Of a DNA stretch of 58,366 bases, positions 6,275 to 58,366 are shown piece by piece. Source of the DNA: a virus; IMG/VR virus record IMGVR_UViG_3300045965_000268, positions 1 through 58,366 of that record, one strand, 5' to 3'. Numbering within the stretch: position 1 is the first letter of the stretch; each line of letters opens with the position of its first letter. A program made the position numbers and the translations under genes. Under the pieces are notes generated by a model. That model made no database searches, was not told the DNA's origin, and saw nothing but the letters and a program-made list of their open reading frames with translations.

Positions 6275-8413
6275 TCAGGACAGGGTGACGGTGCCAGCGC
6301 GAACCTCGAGCTGCGCGTCTGCCAGCTCGATGGCCTGCGCCTGGTGGCTGACGTACAGCACGTGACGGAACCCGCCGAGCTGGGCGGAGCGGCGGAGCAT
6401 GCGGACGTACGCCGGGGCCCTGGCGACGTCCAGTGGCGCGGAAACCTCATCGCGGAGCAGGGTGCGGATCTGGCGTCCGGACCGGCTCGCGGTGTAGAGC
6501 GCCAGGGCCAGGGACAGCGCCTCGCTGACAAGCACCGACTCCCCGCCGCTGAGAAGGGCGGCATCAATCGGCTCCCCGCCCCGGCGCACGATGACGTCGA
6601 GCGTTTCGAGCTGGCGGTCCCCGTCGGCCGAGGCTCGCTGCGTTGTGAGCGAGATGGTGAAGACCTGTTCTCCGAAGCATGTCGTGAGGAGGTCCGTGGC
6701 GAGCCGTCCCAGCTCCGGCAGCGCCTGGTCGATGAGGAGTGCGGGGATCCCCGAGGGCCCGAACGCACGGCCCAGCAGGGCCCAATCGGCGACGTCGTCG
6801 GTGTGCACCGCCTCCCGGGCCCGGAGGTCGACGAGCAATCGGTCCGCTTCGTCGACCTTGTCGAGCTGGGCCCGTAGCCCGCCAAGAGTCTCCGCGAAGC
6901 TTTCGATCGAGAAGGCGTACCTGTTCAGCAACCCCTCTTCGATCTCGACGCCCTTCGTCGCGAAGGCTACGTTCTCGTCGAGTTGTGCAAGATCGGCGAG
7001 CCGTTCTTTCAATTCACCGCGCCGAGCGGTCTTCGTGGCGAGGTCGGCGTCGATCCGCTTCCGCTCCTCGGCACTGGCATCGATGCGTGCGTGGGCGGCG
7101 CTGAGGGCCGGCTGCTGCTCCGCCGCGGAGCGGTAGCGCGCCGCTTCCTGTTGCAGCATGGTCCGGCGGGCTACCAGGGGCTTCACCATGTCCGTCGTCG
7201 GCGAGGGGACCGGTGGCAGCGCGTCGAGCGCTTCGATGGCGAGGCGGGACGCTTCCTTCGCCGCCGGAAGCTTCGGCGTCGCCGCCTGGGCGTCCTTCAG
7301 GTACTGACAGGTCGCGTAGTTACCCTCGCCGCGGCACGGCACGGTCCCCAGCACCGAGACCTGCCGGCGGAGCTGCTCGTACTCCTTCGTCGTCTCGCGC
7401 GCCTTCGCGCCGGCGTGGCTCGCGGCGATCTCCGCCTGGGCGCGCAGCTTCGACTGTTCCGTGAACGCCGCTGTCGCCTTATCGATCTCCGCCGTGAGGT
7501 TCTCGACCTCACCCCGGATCACCGCGGTGCGCTCCACGGCGGCCCGGATCTCTCTCCCCATCGCCACGAGCTTCACGTCCGAGGCGCGTTCCTTCTCGAT
7601 GGCTCCGATCCTGCTGACAAATCCGGCCATCTCTACGTCGAGACGGCCCAGCTCGTCAGAAAGAGGCGCGACCGCGGCCCGCGCCTCCCGGGCCTTGATC
7701 AGATCTGTCCGAGCGATCTCCAGCGCTGCCCTGGCCCCGTTGGCGAGGTCGCGGGCCCGCTGGCTCTCCTGCTCCGCCGTGGCTCGCTGCTGCTCGATCA
7801 ACGGCCGGCGCGCTGCGATCGCGGCGAGGTCCGTGATGCGCTGACGCGTCGTGGCGAGGAGCACCTCGGCGCCGGCTCCGTGCGCCTTCGCCGTGGCCTG
7901 GTACTGCGTGAATCGCTGCAGGCCGAGCAACTCGCCGAGCAGGGCCTTGCGCTCGGGCCGCGGCAGCCGGAGGAAGGCGCCCACGCCCGTCTGGACGGAG
8001 TACATCGCCGCGAGCAGGAGCTCGGTCGGCCCGACGATGGCGTGGACCGACCGGCGGTAGTCTCGAATCAACGGACCCGCGATCATGGTGACGTCGTCCC
8101 CGTTGATCGCGTAGAGCGTCCCTTCCGTCCGCCCCGAGTGCGGATCGATGAGGAGCGCGCTGCGATAACACTGGCCGTCGGTCGACCATGTCAGGTCGAT
8201 GCGGCCCTTCGCGACGAAGTTGTGTGTGAGGGCGCCGGGCCGATACGGCATCTCGCCGCAGAACACCGCGACGATGCAGTCCATGATCATCGTCTTCCCG
8301 GCCCCGTTCACCCCGGAGACCGAGATCAACGACGGCGCGGCGTCGAAGTCGATGACGATCGGCGTGTGCGGAAAGGGATAGCTGCCGACGTGCTCGAATA
8401 GATGGAGGATCAT
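6275..8413 (-). CDS. SbcC/Rad50-like (gp46-type) recombination ATPase
   Basis: 712 aa from the ATG overlapping the upstream SbcD-like stop. SMC/Rad50 layout: N-terminal ATPase half with Walker A GVNGAGKT (residues 34-41), a long coiled coil, a hook region with C360 and C369 (PCRGEGNYATC), a second coiled coil, and the C-terminal half with signature LSGGES (about 621) and Walker B-like LLRDE (D655, E656) then SHQ. With the upstream phosphoesterase it should form an SbcCD/gp46-gp47 nuclease complex that processes DNA ends for recombination-dependent replication. Confidence 0.9.
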   Translation of the reverse strand: MILHLFEHVGSYPFPHTPIVIDFDAAPSLISVSGVNGAGKTMIMDCIVAVFCGEMPYRPGALTHNFVAKGRIDLTWSTDGQCYRSALLIDPHSGRTEGTLYAINGDDVTMIAGPLIRDYRRSVHAIVGPTELLLAAMYSVQTGVGAFLRLPRPERKALLGELLGLQRFTQYQATAKAHGAGAEVLLATTRQRITDLAAIAARRPLIEQQRATAEQESQRARDLANGARAALEIARTDLIKAREARAAVAPLSDELGRLDVEMAGFVSRIGAIEKERASDVKLVAMGREIRAAVERTAVIRGEVENLTAEIDKATAAFTEQSKLRAQAEIAASHAGAKARETTKEYEQLRRQVSVLGTVPCRGEGNYATCQYLKDAQAATPKLPAAKEASRLAIEALDALPPVPSPTTDMVKPLVARRTMLQQEAARYRSAAEQQPALSAAHARIDASAEERKRIDADLATKTARRGELKERLADLAQLDENVAFATKGVEIEEGLLNRYAFSIESFAETLGGLRAQLDKVDEADRLLVDLRAREAVHTDDVADWALLGRAFGPSGIPALLIDQALPELGRLATDLLTTCFGEQVFTISLTTQRASADGDRQLETLDVIVRRGGEPIDAALLSGGESVLVSEALSLALALYTASRSGRQIRTLLRDEVSAPLDVARAPAYVRMLRRSAQLGGFRHVLYVSHQAQAIELADAQLEVRAGTVTLS

Positions 8414-9501
8414 CCTTGCACCTCCGCGACCTTCGCCTGGACCCGCTCCGCGCGCGCCGGCGTCAGGTCCTGCTCCGTCGCCTCCGCCCACGCCGCCAGC
8501 TGGTCCTCGAGCCGCGTGCTCTGCGCGATCGCCGGGGTCCGGGTGCGCTCGGTCGGCACGACGATCTTCTCGAGGACGAAGTGGCTGGCGCGGTCGCGGA
8601 TCCCGTCGAAGACGGACGGCTCGAACGTGGCCACCTGGTCCTCGGGGATCTCGACGGTGACCTTGACCTCGGGCCTGTCGCCGCCCACGCTCTCGACCAG
8701 CGCTTCCAGGTAGGTATCCATCGGGGCCGTGATCGGCCAGGTCAGCTTGCGGACCACCATCTCCCGCGCCGGCAACGGCCGGTGCTCCCACGACGGAGCG
8801 AACCCATCGCCGACCGTGATCAGCACGTACGACTTGCGCTCAGCCGCCTCGGCAAAGGAGCAACGATAGAGGGAGCCGGCGATGACGACGTTGTCGCCGA
8901 TCGCCTGCCGGCGGTGAATGTGCCCGGTGACCACGAGCGAGGCCGGCGCGAGCGCGGCGAGCGGGACGACCATCTCATGGCCGACGTGGACTTCGTAATC
9001 GCTGTCGTTCAGGCGGGCCCCTTCCGGAGTCCAGTGGCCAGCGACGATGACGGGCTCCCTCGTTCCGGAGACCGTCTCCGCGATCGTCTCGGCCAGGAGC
9101 TGCGCGGAGTCCTTGTGCGTCTCGGCGCCGACGTAGGGCGCGTGTCCGCGTCGGGCGTAGGGCGCGAGCAGTAACGTGGCGCCGCGAAGTGGGACGGTGA
9201 CGAACTCGTCCCACGCCACCACGACGCCGAGGAACTCCAGCCAGCGCAGCGCATCCCTGGATTCGTGGTTCCCCGTGACCTCGAAGACGCTCCCGCGCTC
9301 CGCCATCCGCTTGTAGCGCATGCCGAGCGCCATGCGTTCCTCGCCGTTCGGGTCGCCCTCGCAGACGTCGCCGAGGCCGACGAACACCGACGCGCCTTGC
9401 TCGATCGCGTCCGTGATTGCGGCGTCCCAGACCTCCAGGGCGTGCTCGAAGCGAGGGCTGCGCAGGCTCACGTGGCGGTCGCCGAAGCAGGCGATCTTCA
9501 T
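8410..9501 (-). CDS. SbcD/Mre11-like (gp47-type) exonuclease subunit
   Basis: 363 aa calcineurin-like phosphoesterase. Metal-binding motifs in order: FGDRH (D8, H10), GLGD (D45), GNHE (N78, H79), a GHW box and GHIHR. The C-terminal part is the capping region that contacts the Rad50-like partner. It is translationally coupled to that partner by ATGA, as expected for a complex. Expected activity is Mn-dependent nuclease at double-strand ends. Confidence 0.9.
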   Translation of the reverse strand: MKIACFGDRHVSLRSPRFEHALEVWDAAITDAIEQGASVFVGLGDVCEGDPNGEERMALGMRYKRMAERGSVFEVTGNHESRDALRWLEFLGVVVAWDEFVTVPLRGATLLLAPYARRGHAPYVGAETHKDSAQLLAETIAETVSGTREPVIVAGHWTPEGARLNDSDYEVHVGHEMVVPLAALAPASLVVTGHIHRRQAIGDNVVIAGSLYRCSFAEAAERKSYVLITVGDGFAPSWEHRPLPAREMVVRKLTWPITAPMDTYLEALVESVGGDRPEVKVTVEIPEDQVATFEPSVFDGIRDRASHFVLEKIVVPTERTRTPAIAQSTRLEDQLAAWAEATEQDLTPARAERVQAKVAEVQG

Positions 9502-10013
9502 GACGCCCTCTCTGCTCGGGCCGTGCAGCTCTTACAGCGCGCACGGAGACCGCGGAAGGTGCTGGCCTGTCGAGCGAACTCCGTCGGAGGCTTCCGCTCC
9601 CGACATTTCGAGCAGAGCTTCCCGCCGAGCCGGCTGTCGATCAGCCGTCGAGTCCGGGCGTGGAGCAGCTTGTGATAGCCCGCGTCCTCGCAGATCACGA
9701 GATTCGTTGGCCGGTTATCCGACCTGATCTCGTTCACGTGATGGACAACGGCGCTCGCCGGCAGTGGTCGTCCGAGGGCGCGTTCGGCGATGAGGACGTG
9801 CTCGAACACGTATCCGTCTCGACGCCGAGGCGGCACCGCCGGGTCGAGCACCAACACGTGCCCATCGACGATCCTGCGTCCGAGCTTCTTGATGCTTCGC
9901 CCCGCGTGCCCGTGAATGAATCGGACGGGTTGTCCCTTCACCTGATTGCGACCCTTGATCGTCGCTGTCGCGATCGGGGCCGGCTGACCACAGCCGCACT
10001 CGCACTGCTTCAT
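9498..10013 (-). CDS. HNH endonuclease (homing type)
   Basis: 171 aa; the ATG shares a base with the previous stop (TGATG). N-terminal Cys cluster (CECGCGQ), then the HNH core SAVVHHVNEIRSDNRPTNL...YHKLLH, and a C-terminal zinc ribbon (CSKC...CKSC). The architecture is that of free-standing phage homing HNH enzymes. It sits between a 56-aa gene and the SbcD-like gene without disrupting either. Second of three HNH proteins in this genome. Confidence 0.85.
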   Translation of the reverse strand: MKQCECGCGQPAPIATATIKGRNQVKGQPVRFIHGHAGRSIKKLGRRIVDGHVLVLDPAVPPRRRDGYVFEHVLIAERALGRPLPASAVVHHVNEIRSDNRPTNLVICEDAGYHKLLHARTRRLIDSRLGGKLCSKCRERKPPTEFARQASTFRGLRARCKSCTARAERAS

Positions 10014-10183
10014 CAGGCGATCCGCCGGTGCTCGAGCGCCTCGAGCTCGGCGTCGACGACCGTCCGGAGGGCCTGGGCGAGCCGCTCGGTCTCCTGCGCG
10101 CGCTCGTCCATCGTGAGCCGGTAGCCGGTCAGGATCGTCTTGGCCAGGCCGTGGCACTTCTGGTCGATGTCCAGGGCGGGCAT
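10013..10183 (-). CDS. 56-aa helical microprotein
   Basis: Begins MPALDIDQKCHGLAKTILTG and ends with a charged amphipathic helix (ETERLAQALRTVVDAELEAL). Both ends overlap neighbouring genes by TGATG. No family recognised. Confidence 0.6.
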   Translation of the reverse strand: MPALDIDQKCHGLAKTILTGYRLTMDERAQETERLAQALRTVVDAELEALEHRRIA

Positions 10184-11271
10184 CAGAAGGGCACCCGCTC
10201 CGGCCGGCCGGTGAGCTGCTCGGCCAGCGGCCGACCGTCGTCCACGACACGCCGCGCCTCGCCGTCGATCACCGGCCCGCCGCCGCTGCTGGTCTCGTCG
10301 TCGACCTGGAGGCCGCGCTTCGCCATCTGGGCCTCGAACAGCTCACGGATCTTCCGGGCCCGCACCATCTCGGCGTAGGTGAGCTTCCGGCCGATCTTCA
10401 GCGTCAGGGCCTTGTAGCTGATGCCGGCGTTGCTCCGCTCGTCGGTGAGCCCGAAGACGGTGGTCACGGCGAGCAGCGCCGAGTTGGCCTTCCGGAGCTG
10501 CACGGCGTAGTCGGAGAACGTCTTGAGGGCTGACGGCGGCAGGCTGACGAGCGTGGGGATCTCCTCGTCGCCCATCAGCACGAACGTCTGCAGGCGTGCC
10601 TTGCACGCCTGCCCGTGTCCGTCCCTACCGGTGCCGAAGCGTGCGTGGGGGCAGATCCCGCAGGTCTTCGCCTGCTTCCCCTCGCCCTCCAGCGGCGTGA
10701 TGCCGTCCGGCGACGAGCAGGTCGGCGGGTTCTTCTTGCTCACCTCAGCGTCCAGCGGCCAGTACGCTCGGGTCGGCTGCTTGTAGACGACGATGCCCTC
10801 GAGCGTCTTCCTCGCCTCGGGCTCGCCGCTCGCCGTCGGCACCTCCCAGAACGACGAGCCGGAGGTCGGGTACGGCACCCGCGGGAACGTGATGTCGAGG
10901 CCGTCCGTCGTCTCGCGCTGCTCCTCGCGGAAGAAGGCCACGGCCGCGGCGCGCTCCTCGGGCGGCATCAGGGCCCACTCCTCGGCGCTGAACATCTCCT
11001 CCAGGCCGCGGGGGACGGTGGCCAGCGCCTGATCCTGGCTGGTAGTGGCGATCACGGATGGTCGGTCTGCGGTCGGCATGGGTGGCTCCTCCTGGTCGTG
11101 GGTGATGGGCTCCTCCAGCACGGGCGCCGTCACCGTCTCCACGGCGGCCGCGGGCGGCGCCTCGAACATCGGCCCGCCGGTGCCGGCGAGCCGGCGGCCG
11201 TCGGGCCCGTACACGTAGCCGAGATCGGGACGAGGGCTGAAACGAGTGCCGCGGGACGAACGCCGCGCCAT
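10183..11271 (-). CDS. Conserved phage protein, possible ssDNA-binding role
   Basis: 362 aa. The central region has an SSFWEVP segment, a cysteine cluster (TCSSPDG, KTCGICPHARFG, GQACKAR) likely to bind zinc, and a following PTLVSLPPSALKTFSDYAVQL block. This resembles a conserved phage early-protein family found beside recombination genes, but I cannot name it with certainty. The N-terminal 130 residues are acidic and proline-rich, probably disordered. Its place upstream of SbcD/SbcC suggests a DNA-metabolism role. Confidence 0.65.
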   Translation of the reverse strand: MARRSSRGTRFSPRPDLGYVYGPDGRRLAGTGGPMFEAPPAAAVETVTAPVLEEPITHDQEEPPMPTADRPSVIATTSQDQALATVPRGLEEMFSAEEWALMPPEERAAAVAFFREEQRETTDGLDITFPRVPYPTSGSSFWEVPTASGEPEARKTLEGIVVYKQPTRAYWPLDAEVSKKNPPTCSSPDGITPLEGEGKQAKTCGICPHARFGTGRDGHGQACKARLQTFVLMGDEEIPTLVSLPPSALKTFSDYAVQLRKANSALLAVTTVFGLTDERSNAGISYKALTLKIGRKLTYAEMVRARKIRELFEAQMAKRGLQVDDETSSGGGPVIDGEARRVVDDGRPLAEQLTGRPERVPF

Positions 11272-12677: not shown

Positions 12678-12913
12678 GCGGCGGACCCCTGGGCGGCGTG
12701 GCGATGCGCGGCGAGGAGCCGCTTGGCGGCGTTGAGGACGTTGCGCGACTTCCGGCGGCCAGCCAGGACGTTCGACACGGTCGTCGCGTTCACGCTCCGC
12801 CGCCGGGAGGTCCTCGACGCCTCAACCGCGACCGCTTCCTGGCTGATGCCGTGACGCTGGAGCGCGGCCTTGAGCCGTGCTAGCGTCCCGGGGCTTGCTT
12901 TGCTTTGCTTCAC
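12674..12913 (-). CDS. Cro/CI-like HTH regulator
   Basis: 79 aa. LARLKAALQRHGISQEAVAV, then NATTVSNVLAGRRKSRNV, is a lambda-repressor-type HTH (Xre fold) with little else, the size of a Cro protein. It is the first gene of the leftward early operon and is divergent from the repressor-like gene at 12986 across a region with two palindromic operators. It probably binds those operators and helps set the lysis-lysogeny choice. Confidence 0.75.
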   Translation of the reverse strand: MKQSKASPGTLARLKAALQRHGISQEAVAVEASRTSRRRSVNATTVSNVLAGRRKSRNVLNAAKRLLAAHRHAAQGSAA

Positions 12914-15456: not shown

Positions 15457-15530
15457 GCCCTCGTAGCTCAGGAGGAAAGAGCGTGGGGCCCGTACCCCTG
15501 AGGTCGCAGGTTCGAGTCCTGCCGAGGGCA
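15457..15530 (+). tRNA. tRNA, probably Thr (anticodon CGU), with C33
   Basis: 74-nt cloverleaf: acceptor GCCCTCG/CGAGGGC, D arm GCTC-AGGAGGAAA-GAGC, anticodon arm TGGGG-CCCGTAC-CCCTG (two G-U pairs), variable loop of 5, T arm GCAGG-TTCGAGT-CCTGC and discriminator A; CCA is not encoded. The centred loop gives anticodon CGT (Thr, codon ACG), matching the Thr-like acceptor end GCC...GGC. Position 33 is C rather than the near-universal U, so the anticodon is less certain. The antisense frame shows the typical SAGLEPATSGV peptide of bacterial tRNA genes. Confidence 0.8.
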
Positions 15531-15538
15531 CTTACCCT

Positions 15539-18364: not shown

Positions 18365-18736
18365 CTACTTCGCCGCCGGCACGACGCCGGCTGCGTACGC
18401 GTACGTGAGCGACTCACCGACCAGCGCCGCGGTCGCGGCTGACAGGGACGCCAGGTCGCCTGTCGGCGCGGCTGCGGTCCACGTCTTCACGAGCTGACCG
18501 TACGAGAACTTGAAGTGCGGCAGGAAGGCGTTCCATGCCTTGCAGGTATCGACGGAGATCTTCCCGGTCGGGCAGTGCTGGTTCATCGCGGCCGAGGTCG
18601 CGATCGCCGTCTTCCCCGCGAGCTGGAGCGCCTGATAGGTCCCCTGCTGCGCTTGCGCCTTCTTCCCGGCGTCGGTGCTCGCGCAGCCCGTCATCACGAG
18701 CAGCGCCACGATTGCGAGCGCGAGTACACGTCTCAT
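18365..18736 (-). CDS. Lipoprotein, lysis-region
   Basis: 123 aa. MRRVLALAIVALLVMTGCAS is a lipoprotein signal with lipobox VMTGC. The mature part is Ala/Thr-rich with one Cys pair. It sits among holin-like genes, so an outer-membrane spanin-type or cell-surface role is possible, but it is longer than most Rz1 proteins. It implies a diderm host. Confidence 0.6.
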   Translation of the reverse strand: MRRVLALAIVALLVMTGCASTDAGKKAQAQQGTYQALQLAGKTAIATSAAMNQHCPTGKISVDTCKAWNAFLPHFKFSYGQLVKTWTAAAPTGDLASLSAATAALVGESLTYAYAAGVVPAAK

Positions 18737-18990
18737 GGATCTCTCCTCTCTTCCACCTGTCGGATCACTGTCGGTTCAGCGCGCGACGGATTGCCGTCGC
18801 CGCGTTTGCCCGTCACGGCGTGCGTGACGGCAATGGTGAGGATCGAGGTCGTCGCCGCGACAAACTGTTCTCCGGTGATCGCTCCACGCGTCAACGCGAT
18901 CACCACGCCGGTCTCGGCGAGATAGAACAGCCCGTAGCGAATGAGATGGTGCAGGACGTCATAAAACTGGACCACGAGCGATATCCTCAT
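18733..18990 (-). CDS. Membrane protein, holin candidate
   Basis: 85 aa with two hydrophobic helices (GLFYLAETGVVIALTRG and FVAATTSILTIAVTHAVTG) and a charged hydrophilic C-terminal tail with basic and acidic residues, a class II/III holin-like layout. Located with a peptidoglycan-type protein and lipoproteins. The assignment rests on topology and context. Confidence 0.5.
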   Translation of the reverse strand: MRISLVVQFYDVLHHLIRYGLFYLAETGVVIALTRGAITGEQFVAATTSILTIAVTHAVTGKRGDGNPSRAEPTVIRQVEERRDP

Positions 18991-19196
18991 CCGGCCGCGT
19001 CCTCGGGTTGCACAACACAGGGTTGCTCCTCACGTTCCTCTGGCGTGAGCCGCCGCGGCTGCGTCCCGCGGTGCAACAGCCCGCAGAGGATCCGATTCGT
19101 ATCAGAGAAGCCGTCGTCGCTGGGAGAGGCGTGATGCTGGCAGAGCGACGAGTCGCTCGTGATCATCAGCCCGCACGACGCGCAGAGGCTACTCAC
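18987..19196 (-). CDS. Cysteine-rich microprotein
   Basis: 69 aa, GTG start overlapping the upstream stop. CASCGLM, then CQHH, suggests one zinc site. It contains RILCGLLHRGTQPR, very similar to ILCWLLHRGWKV at the start of the neighbouring upstream gene. Function unknown. Confidence 0.5.
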   Translation of the reverse strand: MSSLCASCGLMITSDSSLCQHHASPSDDGFSDTNRILCGLLHRGTQPRRLTPEEREEQPCVVQPEDAAG

Positions 19197-19480
19197 TTCG
19201 CGATCTCCTGCTCGAACACCTCGATGCGGCCGCGGTCGTCCGGCGCGTAGCACAAGAGCGACCGGAGCCCGTTCCCGTCGGCCCGGATGTAGAGACTCGG
19301 CGTGCACACCAGGGCCGGGATCCGCTTCGAGACGGGGACGGGAGGCGGCGTAGCGGCGCAGCCTCCCAGGGCGAGAAGGGCCACCACGAACCGTCCGATC
19401 GGCGGACGCGACGCCACGCAGCGAATACAGCGGCCGTGTACCTTCCATCCTCGATGCAGCAGCCAGCACAAGATGTTCAT
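19193..19480 (-). CDS. Putative lipoprotein, lysis-region
   Basis: 95 aa, ATGA-coupled start. A Cys-rich N-terminus (MNILCWLLHRG...CIRC) precedes a hydrophobic segment with lipobox-like LLALGGCAA, then Pro-rich residues (TPPPVPVS). If the Cys in GGC is lipidated, the true signal begins internally. An Rz1/spanin-like role is possible. Confidence 0.5.
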   Translation of the reverse strand: MNILCWLLHRGWKVHGRCIRCVASRPPIGRFVVALLALGGCAATPPPVPVSKRIPALVCTPSLYIRADGNGLRSLLCYAPDDRGRIEVFEQEIAK

Positions 19481-19893
19481 GGTCTCTGCTCCTCTGTGAT
19501 CTCGATCTCGATCCGCTGACCCGACTCCCAGGCCCAGCGGAGATGTGTGTAGAGCGCGTCGAACGCTGACCGGCTTTGCTGCACCGCATCGAACGAGCGG
19601 CTGCGCCCCGGGAGCAGACACCCATCGGTGTCGCGGTCCGTGTTGCCTGGATGAATCCGGATCCCCGTGAACCCGGGGACGTCGAGGAGCAGGGGAAGGT
19701 CGCGTTGGAACCTGCTGGAGCGGTCGATGATGACCCGGTAGGTACCGGTCGGGATCGCCGTCCGGCCCGGGATCTTTATCCCATTGGGCCGGACGACGTC
19801 CTCCAGGATGTAGCACTCGGGCACCCCGTCGACGGAGAGGTCACCGATGGTCGAGAGTGGAGTGAACCAGCGTCGAACGAGGCGGAGGGTCAA
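19477..19893 (-). CDS. DUF5675-family protein (L,D-transpeptidase-like signature)
   Basis: 138 aa. TAIPTGTYRVIIDRSSRFQR, then VPGFTGIRIHPGNTDRDTDG and CLLPG, carries the conserved IHxGN...T.GC signature of DUF5675, which resembles the His...Gly-Cys active site of YkuD L,D-transpeptidases. With holin-like neighbours it is the only peptidoglycan-enzyme candidate in the lysis region, so it may serve as the endolysin or a cell-wall modifier. Activity is inferred only. Confidence 0.7.
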   Translation of the reverse strand: MTLRLVRRWFTPLSTIGDLSVDGVPECYILEDVVRPNGIKIPGRTAIPTGTYRVIIDRSSRFQRDLPLLLDVPGFTGIRIHPGNTDRDTDGCLLPGRSRSFDAVQQSRSAFDALYTHLRWAWESGQRIEIEITEEQRP

Positions 19894-19896
19894 CGC

Positions 19897-20097
19897 TTAC
19901 CAGAGCCTCGGGTTGCCTAAGAGGCGGACGAGCCAGAAGCACACGATGATGGCGGCGATCGTCCAGATGCCCCAGATCGCCCAGGATCTCGGGGGCTCGG
20001 GCATCGGCGAGACCTTGATCCGCCAGACGACGATCCCGGCAACAGCGAACGCCACGAGCCCCCAGATCACGAGCCAGAGCAACGCCTCGATCGTCAT
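19897..20097 (-). CDS. Two-helix membrane protein
   Basis: 66 aa with two strong transmembrane helices (LLWLVIWGLVAFAVAGIVVW and WAIWGIWTIAAIIVCFWLV) joined by a short loop with charged and proline residues. It is a holin candidate by size, but lies directly after a cyclase-like membrane gene and could partner with it. Confidence 0.55.
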   Translation of the reverse strand: MTIEALLWLVIWGLVAFAVAGIVVWRIKVSPMPEPPRSWAIWGIWTIAAIIVCFWLVRLLGNPRLW

Positions 20098-20111: not shown

Positions 20112-20963
20112 TCAGAAGACGCCTTGCGTCTTTATCAATGCGACCACGGCGCCGATCAGCAACACGGACAGCATGGCCGCGATGAGCCGGAGGCTCTGGT
20201 CCCGGAACCCGAGCCTGATACGGTGCGCCAGCGCCGTGAATTGCTCGACCCGGATCGTCTCCATCCGGGCCATCTCGGTCCGGAGCAGATCCTCGATCCG
20301 CTGGAACCCGCGTGCATCCTCGCCGCGGTGATCGCGCAGCTCCCCGCGCACCTCTCGCACGTCTTCCTTGATCGCCGAGACCTGGACGACGACCTCGGCC
20401 AGCGTCGTGGCCGGCGACGGATCCCCAGCCGCGCCGGCTTTCGTCAGGTAATACTCGACAGGCTCGACGAAGCCCTTCAGCTCCGTGACGCGCCTCGCAA
20501 GGCGAGCCAGGATCTCCGGGCGCCTCGCCAGCTCGGGGTAGAACCGCTCTGACACCGCTACGCCTTCCGGCAGGCAGACCGAGAGCAGGCGAGCGGTCAG
20601 ATCGACGATGGTTCCGTCGACCGTCGCATCCTCGGTGAACGGCTCGCCGTCCCAGGACACCACACCCAGCCCGAGCGCGATCCGGGCCGGGAGCGGGTCG
20701 GGGATCGCCTGCACGCGCAACGCATGCAGGAACACCTCGATGGCGAGGTCCGCCGGCGCCACGAAGAGCCAGCCGTCGCCCTGCCGGAGCCCGATCCGAC
20801 GCACCTGCGACGACAGACCGGCGAACTCATGTTCGAGACGACGCATCCGCTCTCGACGCTCCGCGATGCCGGCCAGCTCGCCTTCCTGGGCCGCTCTGGC
20901 CGTGGAGCCCGAGAGGTCCATGAAAAGGATGACCACCATCCCGGCCGTCTGGGCTGGTGTCAC
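20112..20963 (-). CDS. Class III nucleotidyl-cyclase-like membrane protein
   Basis: 283 aa from a GTG overlapping the upstream stop (GTGA). The N-terminal domain (about 1-170) has the cyclase pattern: VVILFMDLSGST (metal Asp16), GLRQGDGWLF (second metal Asp63), RIALGLGVV and DGTIVDLTARL, where the usual Asn/Arg pair is Asp121/Arg125. The Lys normally four residues before GD is Leu59. A coiled coil (about 185-250) and a C-terminal transmembrane helix (LIAAMLSVLLIGAVVALI) follow. Metal-binding residues are kept while base-selecting ones differ, so an unusual cyclic nucleotide, a Pycsar-like role or an inactive sensor are all possible. Confidence 0.7.
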   Translation of the reverse strand: MTPAQTAGMVVILFMDLSGSTARAAQEGELAGIAERRERMRRLEHEFAGLSSQVRRIGLRQGDGWLFVAPADLAIEVFLHALRVQAIPDPLPARIALGLGVVSWDGEPFTEDATVDGTIVDLTARLLSVCLPEGVAVSERFYPELARRPEILARLARRVTELKGFVEPVEYYLTKAGAAGDPSPATTLAEVVVQVSAIKEDVREVRGELRDHRGEDARGFQRIEDLLRTEMARMETIRVEQFTALAHRIRLGFRDQSLRLIAAMLSVLLIGAVVALIKTQGVF

Positions 20964-21340
20964 GGCACGAAGTCCACGTCGTACACGGGAAAGCTGACTG
21001 TCCATGACCCCTGCTTTGTCGAGTCGTACGTCGCCTTGATCAGCATGACGTGATACTCGACGGCGCGGCCGTCCACGACGATCGGGTTGTCGTCAGGAGT
21101 GAGCTGGATCTTCACGAGCCCGGCCGAGTCGATCGTGCCGCGGCCCGTGTTGAGGATCGACACGCCGTCCACGGAGTTGATCACCGCGACCGGCGCGTCC
21201 CGCGTGTAGAGCTTCAACGTGAGCGCCGAGATCCGGGCCACGTCGATCGCGACGCCGTCCTCGTCTCGCAGCGTGCCCTTGTAGAGGGCGCTCGTCTTCT
21301 GGTTGACACGGGTGCTGAACGCTCGATTGATCACGCCCAT
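20960..21340 (-). CDS. Virion-associated beta-sandwich protein (tail tip/baseplate type)
   Basis: 126 aa: LYKGTLRDEDGVAIDVARIS, ALTLKLYTRD, then VKIQLTPDDNPIV and a VEYHVMLIKATY strand. This looks like a small immunoglobulin/BppU-like upper-baseplate domain. It lies just after the large fibre-like gene and before the cyclase-like gene. Structural role inferred from fold pattern and position. Confidence 0.55.
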   Translation of the reverse strand: MGVINRAFSTRVNQKTSALYKGTLRDEDGVAIDVARISALTLKLYTRDAPVAVINSVDGVSILNTGRGTIDSAGLVKIQLTPDDNPIVVDGRAVEYHVMLIKATYDSTKQGSWTVSFPVYDVDFVP

Positions 21341-28928: not shown

Positions 28929-29167
28929 CGCGACTTCCCGTGCACGACGGGTCGATCCGTATCCGTCTGGCTCTGGAGCACGACGTCGCCGGCTCGGTGC
29001 GGCTCGTCCGTGGTCGGCGCCGACGTGGCCCGGCGACCCTGGTCGTCGACCGTGATCAGGTAGCCCGCCGCGGTGACCGCCTCGACCTTGACGGTCTGGA
29101 TCGGTGCCGGCGCAGAACGCTTCGCCACACCCTGAATCGCCCGGAAGAGTCGCCCACGGTCGATCAC
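28925..29167 (-). CDS. Small tail-tip protein, paralogue of next gene's N-terminus
   Basis: 80 aa, GTG start overlapping the upstream stop (GTGA). LFRAIQGVAKRSAPAPIQTV, then VEAVTAAGYLITVDDQGRRA, aligns by pattern with the first 70 residues of the 472-aa protein downstream, suggesting a duplicated OB-like domain. Likely a baseplate element. Confidence 0.5.
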   Translation of the reverse strand: MIDRGRLFRAIQGVAKRSAPAPIQTVKVEAVTAAGYLITVDDQGRRATSAPTTDEPHRAGDVVLQSQTDTDRPVVHGKSR

Positions 29168-30828
29168 ACCGTAGCCGCCCAATACTTCGCGGTGATCGTC
29201 GTCACGAGCCGAGCCGCCTCGCGCGACTCGTCATAGCGCACGCTGGCCCCGGTCACGAGCATCGGCTGGAACGTAATGCTCGCCCCAGCCGCGTTCTTCA
29301 CTCCAGTCAGCGCGATGACCTGGCCCTTGTGAATCTGCGGCAGCGAGGTGATGAACGTCACCTCGTGCTCGGTGAGATCGTTCGCCGCCTGGATCCGATC
29401 GCGAACCGCCTGGAGCTGGGTCAGCGTGAAGTGCCTCAGGTCCAGCTCGACCGTCAGGGCCCGCGGGTCGGCGGACATGTCGTCCTCGATCAGCGTAACC
29501 GGCGTCAGCTCCGCCTTCGTACCCGAGAGCGGCGGCCGCACCCCGCCGACGCGGAACCCCGATCCGCGTCCCGTGAACGACCGCTTGACGAACCATCGGT
29601 CTTCGTCGTCCTTCCCCTCGACGGTGATGGTCTGCACCGTCGACAGCGGACTCTCGTCGGAGTTCTTCTCCGTCTCACGCTCGTACTCCTGGGGGACGCC
29701 GTCCGAGTCGGGACGGAAACGACGCGTCAGCTTCGCCGACAGGAACCTGTCGCTGTCATAGCTGTAGGCGCATTCCTCACGGTGGCTGAACACGAGTTCC
29801 CCGTCGCTGGTCGCCGTCGAGGAGATCGTCTCCTTGATCGTGTTCTGGAGCTGCGGCTGGTTCACTGGCACACCGCGGTCGTAGATCGAGTCTTCCCACT
29901 CCTGAAACAGCGTCTCTTCGGAAGTGACCCTGGTCGTCCCGGTCGCCGCGTCGATCTGCCAGCGCCGGACGAATTGCTCCAGAAGGAGATCGTCCGGCAT
30001 GCGACGCTGCTCAACGGTGACTACCCGAGAGCCGTTCTGCCCCCCGGCCGGCGCGACGAACTCGTCGGTCACGAACTCCTTCGTGAACCCGCCAACGAAG
30101 ACACCGCCCTCTCCGCCCTGAGGAAGTCGCTGCCCTCGCAGCACGAGCCGCTTGACCCGTGGGAGGATCCTCTTCTCGACCTCGACGCTGCGGATCTTGT
30201 CGTTGTCGACCGTGTACGTCGCCTCGGCGACCAGCGTCGCCGGGCGCTGCCGGATGAAGATCACCTCGCCGTCCGACCAGATGTCGACCCGGCCCGGCTC
30301 CGTCTGCGACCAGGGCGCCGCGAGCTGACGGAGGATATCGATCGCGGTCCCGATCGCCTCGAAGTCCTCCTGGAGCGTGTAATCCTCCACTTGCCACTGC
30401 ATCGAGAACCCGAGGTCGTCCGCGATCGTCGTGGCGATGTGGCTCGCCAGGAATTGCCCCTCGGACTCCTCGATCTCCTCCTGGTCGGCCACGTCGATCT
30501 GCTCCAGCACCGCCGGCCGCGGGGCCCGGAGGAAGCGACGGCGGATCTGGCGATCCAGGAGATGCGCCGCCGCATCGCGGCCGCGGATCGTCGACCGCAG
30601 CTCGTTCGGCAGCACCCGGAGCCCCCAGACGTCGACCACTCCGTCGCGGAGCTGCGCGATCACCTGCTCCGCGCTCAGCGCATCGAGATAGCCCGCGGTG
30701 AGCGTCCAGCGCTCCGCCTCGGTCGCCGCCGCAAAGACGCCGTTGTCCGGGAACTCCGCGTCGAACGTGTCCGGCACGGACTCCAGAACGGAGTTGACCG
30801 AGAAACGGCTCGGCTTCATGACCGTCAT
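29164..30828 (-). CDS. Tail-tip/baseplate hub-like protein
   Basis: 554 aa. N-terminal region with RFSVNSVLESVPDTFDAEFP, a long acidic helix segment and beta-rich C-terminal part (LTVELDLRHFTLTQLQAVRD, then GKVIAL-like GQVIALTGVKN). Size and position between tail virion proteins and baseplate genes fit a central hub protein. No enzymatic motif identified. Confidence 0.5.
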   Translation of the reverse strand: MTVMKPSRFSVNSVLESVPDTFDAEFPDNGVFAAATEAERWTLTAGYLDALSAEQVIAQLRDGVVDVWGLRVLPNELRSTIRGRDAAAHLLDRQIRRRFLRAPRPAVLEQIDVADQEEIEESEGQFLASHIATTIADDLGFSMQWQVEDYTLQEDFEAIGTAIDILRQLAAPWSQTEPGRVDIWSDGEVIFIRQRPATLVAEATYTVDNDKIRSVEVEKRILPRVKRLVLRGQRLPQGGEGGVFVGGFTKEFVTDEFVAPAGGQNGSRVVTVEQRRMPDDLLLEQFVRRWQIDAATGTTRVTSEETLFQEWEDSIYDRGVPVNQPQLQNTIKETISSTATSDGELVFSHREECAYSYDSDRFLSAKLTRRFRPDSDGVPQEYERETEKNSDESPLSTVQTITVEGKDDEDRWFVKRSFTGRGSGFRVGGVRPPLSGTKAELTPVTLIEDDMSADPRALTVELDLRHFTLTQLQAVRDRIQAANDLTEHEVTFITSLPQIHKGQVIALTGVKNAAGASITFQPMLVTGASVRYDESREAARLVTTITAKYWAATV

Positions 30829-44074: not shown

Positions 44075-44202
44075 CAGGCGAGGCTCCGGACAGGGGTCCA
44101 GTGCGCGTCGATGAAGGGACGCATCACTTTCGTCCGCTTCGGATGACAGAGCTTTCGTATCGCTTTCGACTCGATCTGTCGGATCCACGGACGGTCGACC
44201 AT
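44074..44202 (-). CDS. 42-aa basic microprotein
   Basis: MVDRPWIRQIESKAIRKLCH, then PKRTKVMRPFIDAHWTPVRS. ATGA overlap with the portal stop, and TGATG at its own end. Strongly basic, so possibly nucleic-acid-binding. Function unknown. Confidence 0.6.
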   Translation of the reverse strand: MVDRPWIRQIESKAIRKLCHPKRTKVMRPFIDAHWTPVRSLA

Positions 44203-46604
44203 CAGCCCTTCAGCACCAGGGTCGTCGTGCACCGACACGCCGGATGTGCCGGCGGCGTCATGACGGCTGTCCCATCGGGCAGCGTGAACGGCTCATCGAG
44301 CCCGACGAGCGCATGCTCCGCCATCGGCAAGCAGATCTCCTCGTCGAGGCGATCGTCATCGGTAACGAGCCACTTCCGCCGCGCCGTCTCGTCGATCGAG
44401 CCTTCCTCACGCGCCTGCACCCACTGTTCCCGCTGCCCCTGATTCGCGGCCGCGATCGACTCCGTGCGCCCGATCAACTCCGCGCGCTTGCGCAGCGTGC
44501 GGCGCGCGTACTTGTCGGTCATGCGTTGGACCTGATCCTCCGGCCGGCCCTCGTCGAGCAGCTCACGCCGATACGCATGCACCGCGTTGACCTGGCGCTG
44601 CGTCAACCCGAGCCCGGCGTCGAGCACCATCTTCGCGGTCTGATTCACCTGGAGCCCTGCCTCGATCGACTGCACGATCGCGGCACGCAGCGCCTCCCGC
44701 TGGCTCGACGACACTTCGACCACCAGCGCGACGCCATGGTTCTGCGCCCAGGCGGCGACCCGCGGATTCGTCACGTTGAACCCGATCCCGATGTTGAGCG
44801 CGGACGCCGTCGCCTGGCCCGCCGCGATCACGGTCTGCTGCAAGATCGGCGGGAGCGAGTCGAGCAGCTCCGCCTCGCCGACCTCCGACCAGCGGATCGC
44901 ACCGATCGCGCGATCGATGTCCCCCACAGACAGCGCCGCCTCCAGCGCAGCGCGGTCCGCCTCGCTGCGCGTCTTCGTCACCGCAGCAATGAACGCGTTC
45001 CGGAGTCGAGGATCCGCGGCATCGGCAACGGCGTGCAGGGCCCGGACGACCGAGTCGTTCGACGCCCAGGTCTCCGACGCCCAGGACTCGACGGCCCGAT
45101 GAAGGTCGCGCTTCGCCGTACGCAGATCACGCGCGAGAAGATCCCCGACGTGATCCGCGATGATCCGAGCTGGCGGAAGAGCCCGCTGCTGCCGCGCCTG
45201 GAACATGTGCGCTCGTCGCTGCTTCAGGTTCGGCGGCACGTTCCCGTTGCCGTTGCCGTTGCCGTTGCCGTTCCCGTTGCCGTTCCCGTTCGCCGGCATC
45301 GCCATCGGATCGAAGGCCGGCGCCAGCTCGCTCTTGAACATGTCGCCCTCGTCCCCGAGCGCCTCCATCCCGACGACCTCGCGCGCCTCGTTCTTCGTGA
45401 GCAGATCCGCTTCGTACCCCTGCACCGCCCACTTCCGCCGCGTGTCCTGGTTCTCCTGGAGCGCCTCGACCATCCCCGTGTCGAACACGATGCGGAGATC
45501 GTCCCCGAACTCCGCGGCGAGATCCACCGTCAGCAGCTCGCCAAGATCCGCGCAGAGCGGCGCGAGCGTCTCCTGCCAGAACGACTTCCGGTATTCCTTC
45601 GCATTGCTGTACGTCGCATGCTCCAGCCCGACCAGGGCCCCGACCACGACGGCCGGCACGCCGATGACGCCGCAGATCCTCGACTCCGTCAGTCCGAAGA
45701 TCGGCGCGATGTCGAGGCGCTCGATCTTCGCGGCGATCTGCTGATAGGTAACATCGCCGTCGAGGATCGAGACGTCGTGCCAGTTGCCGACCGGCCGTCC
45801 CCCGAACCAGCCGCCGACCATCTCGCCGATCCAGCCCAGCGTGCTGCGACGCGCCGGGCCCGCATGCTGTTCCTTCCAGAGCGCCTTCAACCGCTCACGC
45901 TCCTCGGACGGCACCTTGCCCTTGAACGTGAGCACGCCAGCCGGCACGCCAGCGTTGTAGAAGAACGCGCGCACGAACTCGACACCCTGGTTGTCGAGGT
46001 CGCCGAGGCTCGCCAGCACCGAGATCGGCGAGATCCCGTAGTAGTCGTTGAGCGGATCCGGCGCCCACATCTTTTGAATCATGTCCGCCGGCTCGATCGG
46101 GATCTTCCGCTCGTTGCCCTCGACCGCGTACTCGTAGCCCTCGACGCGGCCGTTCTGCCCAGGCTTCACACGCACGCGATCAGGACGCAACGGCCACAGC
46201 TCCACGACGTTGCGCCGCTCCGCGCGCACCTTGTGCAGGTACCCGTTCCCGCCGCAATAGAGATACGTGATGTACCGCTGCAACATCGCCGTGCGGGACT
46301 TGTCGGCCGGGTTCGGCTTGTCGAGCAAGCGCCGGAGCGGATGATTCCGCTCGACGTCGATCAGCGTCCCATCTGCCTGCTCACGTGCGACCCGCAACGG
46401 CGGCTCGCACAACGACGTCGCGATCTCGTTGATGCACGCGCACACGAGCGCGTTCCGTCGGAATCCGCTGTCGGCGAGCAGACGATAGTTGTCCGGATGC
46501 GGCAGCGGCCGCCCCTGCTGCCACGTCGGGACGGAGCGAGCCACGACCGAATCCGCCCTCGGCGTCATCCCCATTGCGCGCGCGAACCGTTCCATCAGCC
46601 CCAT
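44202..46604 (-). CDS. Portal protein fused to MuF-like head protein
   Basis: 800 aa. Residues 1-430 are an HK97-type portal (LVCACINEIATSLCEPPLRV, YLYCGGNGYLHKVRAERRNV, YYGISPISVLASLGDLD, GVPAGVLTFKGKVPSEERE). A linker of eight to nine Gly-Asn units (about 438-456) leads to a C-terminal Mu gpF-like domain: RAELIGRTESIAAANQGQRE, then PPAHPACRCT. In most phages portal and MuF are separate genes. The fusion puts a MuF copy on every portal subunit. Confidence 0.9.
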   Translation of the reverse strand: MGLMERFARAMGMTPRADSVVARSVPTWQQGRPLPHPDNYRLLADSGFRRNALVCACINEIATSLCEPPLRVAREQADGTLIDVERNHPLRRLLDKPNPADKSRTAMLQRYITYLYCGGNGYLHKVRAERRNVVELWPLRPDRVRVKPGQNGRVEGYEYAVEGNERKIPIEPADMIQKMWAPDPLNDYYGISPISVLASLGDLDNQGVEFVRAFFYNAGVPAGVLTFKGKVPSEERERLKALWKEQHAGPARRSTLGWIGEMVGGWFGGRPVGNWHDVSILDGDVTYQQIAAKIERLDIAPIFGLTESRICGVIGVPAVVVGALVGLEHATYSNAKEYRKSFWQETLAPLCADLGELLTVDLAAEFGDDLRIVFDTGMVEALQENQDTRRKWAVQGYEADLLTKNEAREVVGMEALGDEGDMFKSELAPAFDPMAMPANGNGNGNGNGNGNGNGNVPPNLKQRRAHMFQARQQRALPPARIIADHVGDLLARDLRTAKRDLHRAVESWASETWASNDSVVRALHAVADAADPRLRNAFIAAVTKTRSEADRAALEAALSVGDIDRAIGAIRWSEVGEAELLDSLPPILQQTVIAAGQATASALNIGIGFNVTNPRVAAWAQNHGVALVVEVSSSQREALRAAIVQSIEAGLQVNQTAKMVLDAGLGLTQRQVNAVHAYRRELLDEGRPEDQVQRMTDKYARRTLRKRAELIGRTESIAAANQGQREQWVQAREEGSIDETARRKWLVTDDDRLDEEICLPMAEHALVGLDEPFTLPDGTAVMTPPAHPACRCTTTLVLKG
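45237..45293 (-). repeat. Hexanucleotide repeat coding the Gly-Asn linker
   Basis: About nine tandem GTTGCC/GTTCCC units on the plus strand (GGC-AAC or GGG-AAC codons on the coding strand) give the Asn-Gly tract between portal and MuF domains. Simple repeats like this change length easily by slippage. Confidence 0.85.
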
Positions 46605-58237: not shown

Positions 58238-58296
58238 TGGTGACCCCGGCGGGATTCGAACCCGCGATCTCGACCTTGAAAGGGTCGCGGCGACAC
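58238..58296 (-). other. attP core: 3' half of tRNA-Glu(UUC)
   Basis: Read on the minus strand: anticodon stem-loop CGACC-CTTTCAA-GGTCG (anticodon TTC, Glu), variable AGATC, T arm GCGGG-TTCGAAT-CCCGC, acceptor CGGGGTC, discriminator A and CCA (58238-58240). No 5' half (acceptor strand or D arm) is present, so it is not a tRNA gene but the segment that restores the host tRNA on integration. The integrase stop codon lies within 2 bp of its edge. Confidence 0.88.
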
Positions 58297-58366
58297 TTAT
58301 GATCTCGCGTGCTTGCGCGGCGTGGTTGCCACGCGGGTTGCCGTTTCGACCCTGTGAGCGGCCACG
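58240..58366. repeat. Terminal overlap, right copy
   Basis: Identical to 1-127. It contains the attP core and the last codons of the integrase, and confirms circular topology of the assembled molecule. Confidence 0.9.

Follow-up and report, generated by a model that had tools for sequence, protein, structure and literature searches.

Class III nucleotidyl cyclase domains function as homodimers. The base is selected by a residue pair, Lys/Asp in adenylate cyclases (AC) or Glu with a variable partner in guanylate cyclases (GC), and an Asn-Arg pair serves the transition state. Rv1900c has His at the Asn site and is an active enzyme (PMC4886424), Ma1120 is active with Ala at the same site, where a change to Asn sharply cut or abolished activity, and some ACs and GCs carry Thr at the Asp site (PMC4215837). 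Cyclase domains are already known from phages: HTVC008M, a Pelagibacter phage (L243), and Melnitz, a Methylophilales phage (L244, Melnitz-3), encode annotated cyclases of 611-683 aa near curlin-like genes and outside the visible lysis region, and a Ruminococcus phage encodes an annotated cyclase of 475 aa. The position of the cyclase right after curlin-associated or neighbouring genes is a conserved setting in phages of two host lineages. Recognisable class III domains were found by tblastn with generic cyclase queries in about a dozen of 50,697 phage records, which supports the rarity stated, for cyclases in phage late operons, in a sequence-only reading of the DNA described here.

In this paper we describe a cyclase homology domain (CHD) protein encoded in the viral record IMGVR_UViG_3300045965_000268; the window is this whole stretch of 58,366 bases. 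Its first 127 bases (1-127) are identical to its last 127 (58240-58366), so the contig is probably complete and circular, and since genes for an integrase, terminase, portal, major head protein and tape measure are all present, the phage is temperate and tailed. Within the 127-base terminal repeat, beside the integrase gene (58-1122), there is a weak tRNA-like match, a possible attachment site. Portal and head-morphogenesis (MuF-like) domains share a single 800-aa ORF at 44202-46604. A 385-aa protein at 1466-2623 strongly matches the PADLOC candidate-defence models PDC-M41B/M30B (E about 1e-60) and also phrog_2045, of unknown function, and an 838-aa SMC/SbcC-like ATPase at 6275-8791 has weaker matches to the MADS mad3 and LmuB models. 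Rfam and ARAGORN agree on a tRNA-Thr (CGT) gene at 15457-15531; the tRNA-Leu called by ARAGORN at 12696-12791 overlaps ORFs and is without Rfam confirmation. IMG/VR contig 3300045947_000116 (positions 10001-10939) encodes 313 residues that match the 554-aa protein at 29164-30828 with 100% identity, and appears to be the same phage in another assembly. A search with the portal protein gave no match in four whole-genome samples and was uninformative as to host.

The CHD gene, which had been proposed earlier without mention of strand, is real and lies on the minus strand. It and its upstream neighbour comprise the following features:

20112-20963, minus strand: CHD protein, 283 aa, with the CHD at about residues 1-178, a helical linker or possible coiled coil at 183-254 and a C-terminal transmembrane (TM) helix at 256-279 (profile, AlphaFold2, Foldseek/VIA, TM and helix analysis)
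20430-20963, minus strand: cyclase homology domain; D16 and D63, metal; R125, transition state; L59, T114 and D121 at the Lys, Asp and Asn sites
20115-20198, minus strand: C-terminal TM anchor, about residues 256-283, hydropathy 2.58 at residue 260, short C-terminal tail predicted outside
20960-21340, minus strand: upstream late gene, 126 aa, no confident family match (ORF list and sequence)

The CHD gene starts at 20963 with a GTG that lies in GTGA and so shares bases with the stop codon TGA of its upstream neighbour, an arrangement usual in translationally coupled genes. Its GC content is similar to that of the rest of the genome, and no promoter-like site was found in the region.

No usable match to the CHD protein was obtained in Pfam, PHROGs, NCBIfam or PADLOC, so annotation by these libraries would miss it. 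Alignments with annotated cyclases by tblastn and BLASTP extended over the whole domain at 28-30% identity, and a profile of 80 other cyclase domains, from which the CHD protein itself was excluded, recovered it among 11,241 ORFs at E=2.1e-14, a match far beyond chance. An AlphaFold2 model computed from a 29-row alignment has pLDDT mostly 80-97 for residues 1-175, except for 51-60 at 61; compared by VIA it aligns with the CHD of Rv1900c over 160 residues (5-178) with Z 21.4 and an rmsd of 2.0 Å, and with Ma1120 with Z 20.9, although this evidence is not fully independent of the profile, as the alignment behind the model is made of cyclases. Foldseek gave a concordant result against class III cyclases (E 5e-10). 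A single-sequence AlphaFold2 model was poor (pLDDT 50) and was set aside. The curated Pfam model PF00211 did not match the CHD protein, whereas it matches 28 of the 29 alignment members; we read this as a sensitivity failure of the model, because that score serves as a rule for detection, whereas it is no structural feature of the family. The first 178 or so residues are almost certainly a class III CHD. The sequence-only reading had likewise called the product class III cyclase-like and had named a predicted fold other than a cyclase as what would speak against it; the fold obtained is that of a cyclase. No direct homologue was found in IMG/VR or the 50,697 phage records, plasmids yielded only weak cellular cyclases, and 200 genomes of one phylum contained no close match.

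In the active site, D16 (in MDLSGST), G62, D63 (in RQGDGW), G117 and R125 are invariant in the 29 alignment rows, so that both metal Asp and the Arg stand as first read from the sequence, as do the absence of the selecting Lys and the replacement of the Asn by Asp121. The alignment places Leu59 at the Lys site, Thr114 at the Asp site and Asp121 at the Asn site; the CHD protein thus has neither the AC nor the GC base-selecting pair, and of the transition-state pair it has Arg125, with Asp121 in place of Asn. Of these three changes it is the Leu at the Lys site that stands out. Bacterial relatives that lack the Lys are common in the alignment set, with Glu, His, Gln or Arg in its place and Leu in one case (L152); no example of Leu at this site with known activity was found in the literature consulted. 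As active enzymes without the Asn, Thr at the Asp site and Lys-less bacterial relatives all occur, loss of activity is not deducible for the CHD protein from its residues, and the earlier suggestion of a dead sensor does not follow from Asp121 or Thr114 (PMC4215837, PMC4886424). The residues also leave no basis for naming the base that would be selected. Identity of the CHD protein to all relatives is about 18-31%, and the retention of D16, D63 and R125 at this distance argues against decay of the nucleotide and metal site. We predict that the protein probably binds NTP-metal in some form, and we give it an even chance of some cyclase activity.

Residues 184-252 are predicted to be helical with low confidence (AlphaFold2, pLDDT 53-69), and a weak heptad signal is confined to the first half (p=0.03 over 183-214, against p=0.31 over 214-256). 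Of the coiled coil and C-terminal TM helix proposed previously, the helix is clear, and the coiled coil is possible but weak. The Arg-rich stretch RIRLGFRDQSLR directly precedes the TM segment. By the positive-inside rule, given a strong TM segment with such a stretch ahead of it, the CHD is predicted to be cytoplasmic.

The gene next downstream begins 14 nt past the CHD stop, with a Shine-Dalgarno motif, GGAGG, about 8 nt ahead of its ATG, and is the first of five small genes:

19897-20097, minus strand: 66-aa two-TM protein, holin candidate (sequence; hydropathy peaks 2.67 and 2.14)
19477-19893, minus strand: DUF5675 protein, L,D-transpeptidase-like, likely cell-wall enzyme (Pfam PF18925, E=6e-31; invariant His81 and Cys92)
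19193-19480, minus strand: small lipoprotein-like ORF with lipobox LLALGGC, possible spanin component (inferred from a reading of the sequence)
18733-18990, minus strand: 85-aa protein with hydrophobic segments, possible second holin-like gene (sequence; weak hydropathy peak 1.45)
18365-18736, minus strand: 123-aa lipoprotein-like protein (LVMTGC), possible o-spanin, no confident family (sequence)

His81 and Cys92 do not vary among six diverse DUF5675 members that were aligned, and relatives in crAss-like phages are annotated as L,D-carboxypeptidase/transpeptidase. A gene with a TM segment adjoins DUF5675 in 41 of 59 other phage loci, a count based on crude ORF calls in which one of the proteins is large. 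The mark of a lysis cassette, a cell-wall enzyme together with a small TM gene, is found in DUF5675 and the 66-aa two-TM gene, and since DUF5675 has transpeptidase-annotated relatives and the small TM gene lies beside it, the two probably form such a cassette. The two TM segments of the 66-aa protein had been recognised before, and the hydropathy peaks agree; rather than a cyclic-nucleotide effector, this protein is more plausibly a holin candidate encoded next to a DUF5675 lysis gene. The late-operon position given to the CHD gene does hold, the gene overlapping a late gene through the GTGA and preceding the lysis genes. Very probably the CHD gene belongs to a late/lysis operon, and this context suggests late expression.

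The first locus fetched through DUF5675, L001 (IMGVR_UViG_2162886013_000024), belongs to a different, unrelated phage and contains, in order, DUF5675, a 68-aa TM/coiled-coil gene, a 212-aa CHD (Pfam Guanylate_cyc, E=1.7e-7) and small TM genes. Its DUF5675 is 43% identical to the one in the window. It was the only one with a CHD among about 131 other distinct DUF5675 contigs screened, so the CHD is not a standard lysis part; the second of the scans, which added 80 DUF5675 loci, revealed no additional CHD. The single weak match, L164 (E=0.05), was rejected, as it spans roughly positions 1-57 and the remainder of the domain is missing. One CHD within a few kb of 131 loci exceeds an expectation of very roughly 0.01-0.03, a loose figure because tblastn lacks the sensitivity of a profile and the collections are not the same, and is a lead, not proof; the recurrence rests on two phages. 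Among the phage cyclases found there was no other short tail-anchored cyclase in a lysis region, and no publication on cyclases in lysis cassettes was found in the open-licence literature. A viral fold search in BFVD returned A0A6J5KRX6, an entry from an uncultured Caudovirales phage that is similar in length (287 aa) and is described as a "Guanylate cyclase domain-containing protein". Scanning IMG/VR with generic cyclases returned mostly apparent bacterial signalling proteins on short contigs, which were excluded as phage evidence, although some serve as alignment rows. Many such "viral" cyclase contigs (L140-L162) resemble bacterial signalling loci, with cyclase-ATPase and two-TM sensor proteins, and are probably contamination.

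The explanation that we prefer, tentatively and as a whole at about one chance in three, is that of a tail-anchored late CHD that tunes lysis. The CHD protein is a membrane protein with a CHD predicted to be cytoplasmic, a helical linker and one C-terminal TM helix; it would be made late through coupling to the upstream gene, its own gene being followed by the lysis genes. We infer that it would most likely form a homodimer, in which D16 and D63 hold NTP-Mg at the interface and R125 is available for catalysis; whether, with Leu59/Thr114 at the base sites, it retains some cyclase activity that chooses its base loosely would then be a matter of even odds. NTP occupancy, or a product, might act at the inner membrane on the nearby small TM and lysis proteins and so tune the timing of lysis, a direct role that is itself doubtful. 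The most specific form, a nucleotide-gated lysis clock in which a membrane-tethered cyclase-type domain, fused here and split in L001, senses NTP or makes a cyclic nucleotide near the holin, is quite unlikely.

A membrane-bound active cyclase might instead alter host cyclic-nucleotide signalling late in infection, by cAMP, cGMP or another cNMP, without being aimed at lysis. The fold and metal residues are kept, and the longer cyclases of HTVC008M and Melnitz adjoin curlin genes away from any visible lysis region, but the base-choice residues are lost from the CHD protein and late co-expression with lysis genes would leave little time to reprogram the host, so that we consider this unlikely. 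Rather unlikely, too, is a catalytically dead module in which the CHD is only a dimerising cytoplasmic domain, antiholin-like or a scaffold. The small TM neighbour and the non-canonical residues at all of the Lys, Asp and Asn sites would suit it; however, both metal Asp, the GDG and the Arg have been retained despite about 70-80% divergence, and loss of the Asn alone is compatible with activity (PMC4215837, PMC4886424).

The rarity of the CHD among DUF5675 phages, together with the integrase of this phage, invites the reading that it is an accessory "moron" gene conferring a trait on the lysogen, for example defence against other phages, and unrelated to lysis. Accessory genes often sit at the tail/lysis junction, a frequent insertion point, and this could account for both CHD cases, here and in L001. 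The region, however, lacks a promoter-like site of its own, is joined to the upstream late gene by the GTGA overlap, matches the GC of the rest of the genome and has no effector gene beside it, and we find this reading decidedly improbable. Least probable of all is a counter-defence decoy, a degenerate CHD that heterodimerises with a host defence cyclase (Pycsar or similar) or soaks up what that enzyme uses or makes, for although the catalytic set is changed with the fold intact and phages do counter CBASS and Pycsar by other means, the anti-Pycsar proteins known are nucleases (PMC9117128), a membrane-anchored protein expressed late is ill-suited to early counter-defence, and the CHD protein is without PycC likeness.

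What times lysis, apart from membrane energy, is a long-standing question. Hardly any phages have class III cyclase domains, and the CHD described here lies between a late gene and lysis genes; with its split counterpart in L001 by the same lysis gene family, it suggests that nucleotide sensing or cyclic-nucleotide signalling may be wired to the end of infection, as the preferred tuning of lysis by a tail-anchored CHD would have it.

Compared with known systems, the CHD protein shares the class III fold family with PycC, but the PADLOC PycC profile did not match it at E up to 10, and the residue sets of EaPycC, AnPycC and BcPycC (PMC11224242) are not reproduced as a set. No PycC entry is among the 50 VIA matches listed, which is not evidence of absence. 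The tested neighbours (126-aa, 66-aa and DUF5675) include no PycTM/PycTIR and no CNBD or TIR effector, and the 66-aa protein is too small to hold a nucleotide-binding domain. Pycsar membership, rejected for want of a PycC match and an effector, is not supported; the initial reading of the gene thus survives in its fold, metal Asp, Arg, anchor, late operon and rarity, but not in its option of a Pycsar-like system. With the mycobacterial Rv1900c and Ma1120 the CHD protein has in common the fold, the two metal Asp and the Arg, and in none of the three is the canonical Asn present (His in Rv1900c, Ala in Ma1120; PMC4886424, PMC4215837); Ma1120 has Lys101 and Asp157 where the CHD protein has Leu59 and Thr114, and the helical linker, C-terminal TM anchor and phage origin set the latter apart. 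The best full-domain sequence relatives found are rhizobial proteins that combine an SCO4226-like domain with a cyclase (e.g. L004, L064) and share the motifs GEP...FG.tV.l.aRL and ELKGF.ePV, but these are cellular, keep the Lys and Asp, have Gln at the Asn site and stop soon past the cyclase domain; the N-terminal SCO4226-like domain of L004 is absent from the CHD protein. HTVC008M and Melnitz, like the present phage, are tailed phages with a class III cyclase, but theirs are far longer, lie beside curlin-like genes and are near canonical in sequence (40-46% to a generic consensus). The CHD of L001 is likewise near DUF5675 and small TM genes, with a TM/coiled-coil gene beside it, and from its sequence it too keeps the metal Asp and Arg and has the Asn replaced; it is 22% identical to the CHD protein (global alignment) and retains the Lys, the gene order differs, and its anchor and CHD are separate genes where in the CHD protein they are fused.
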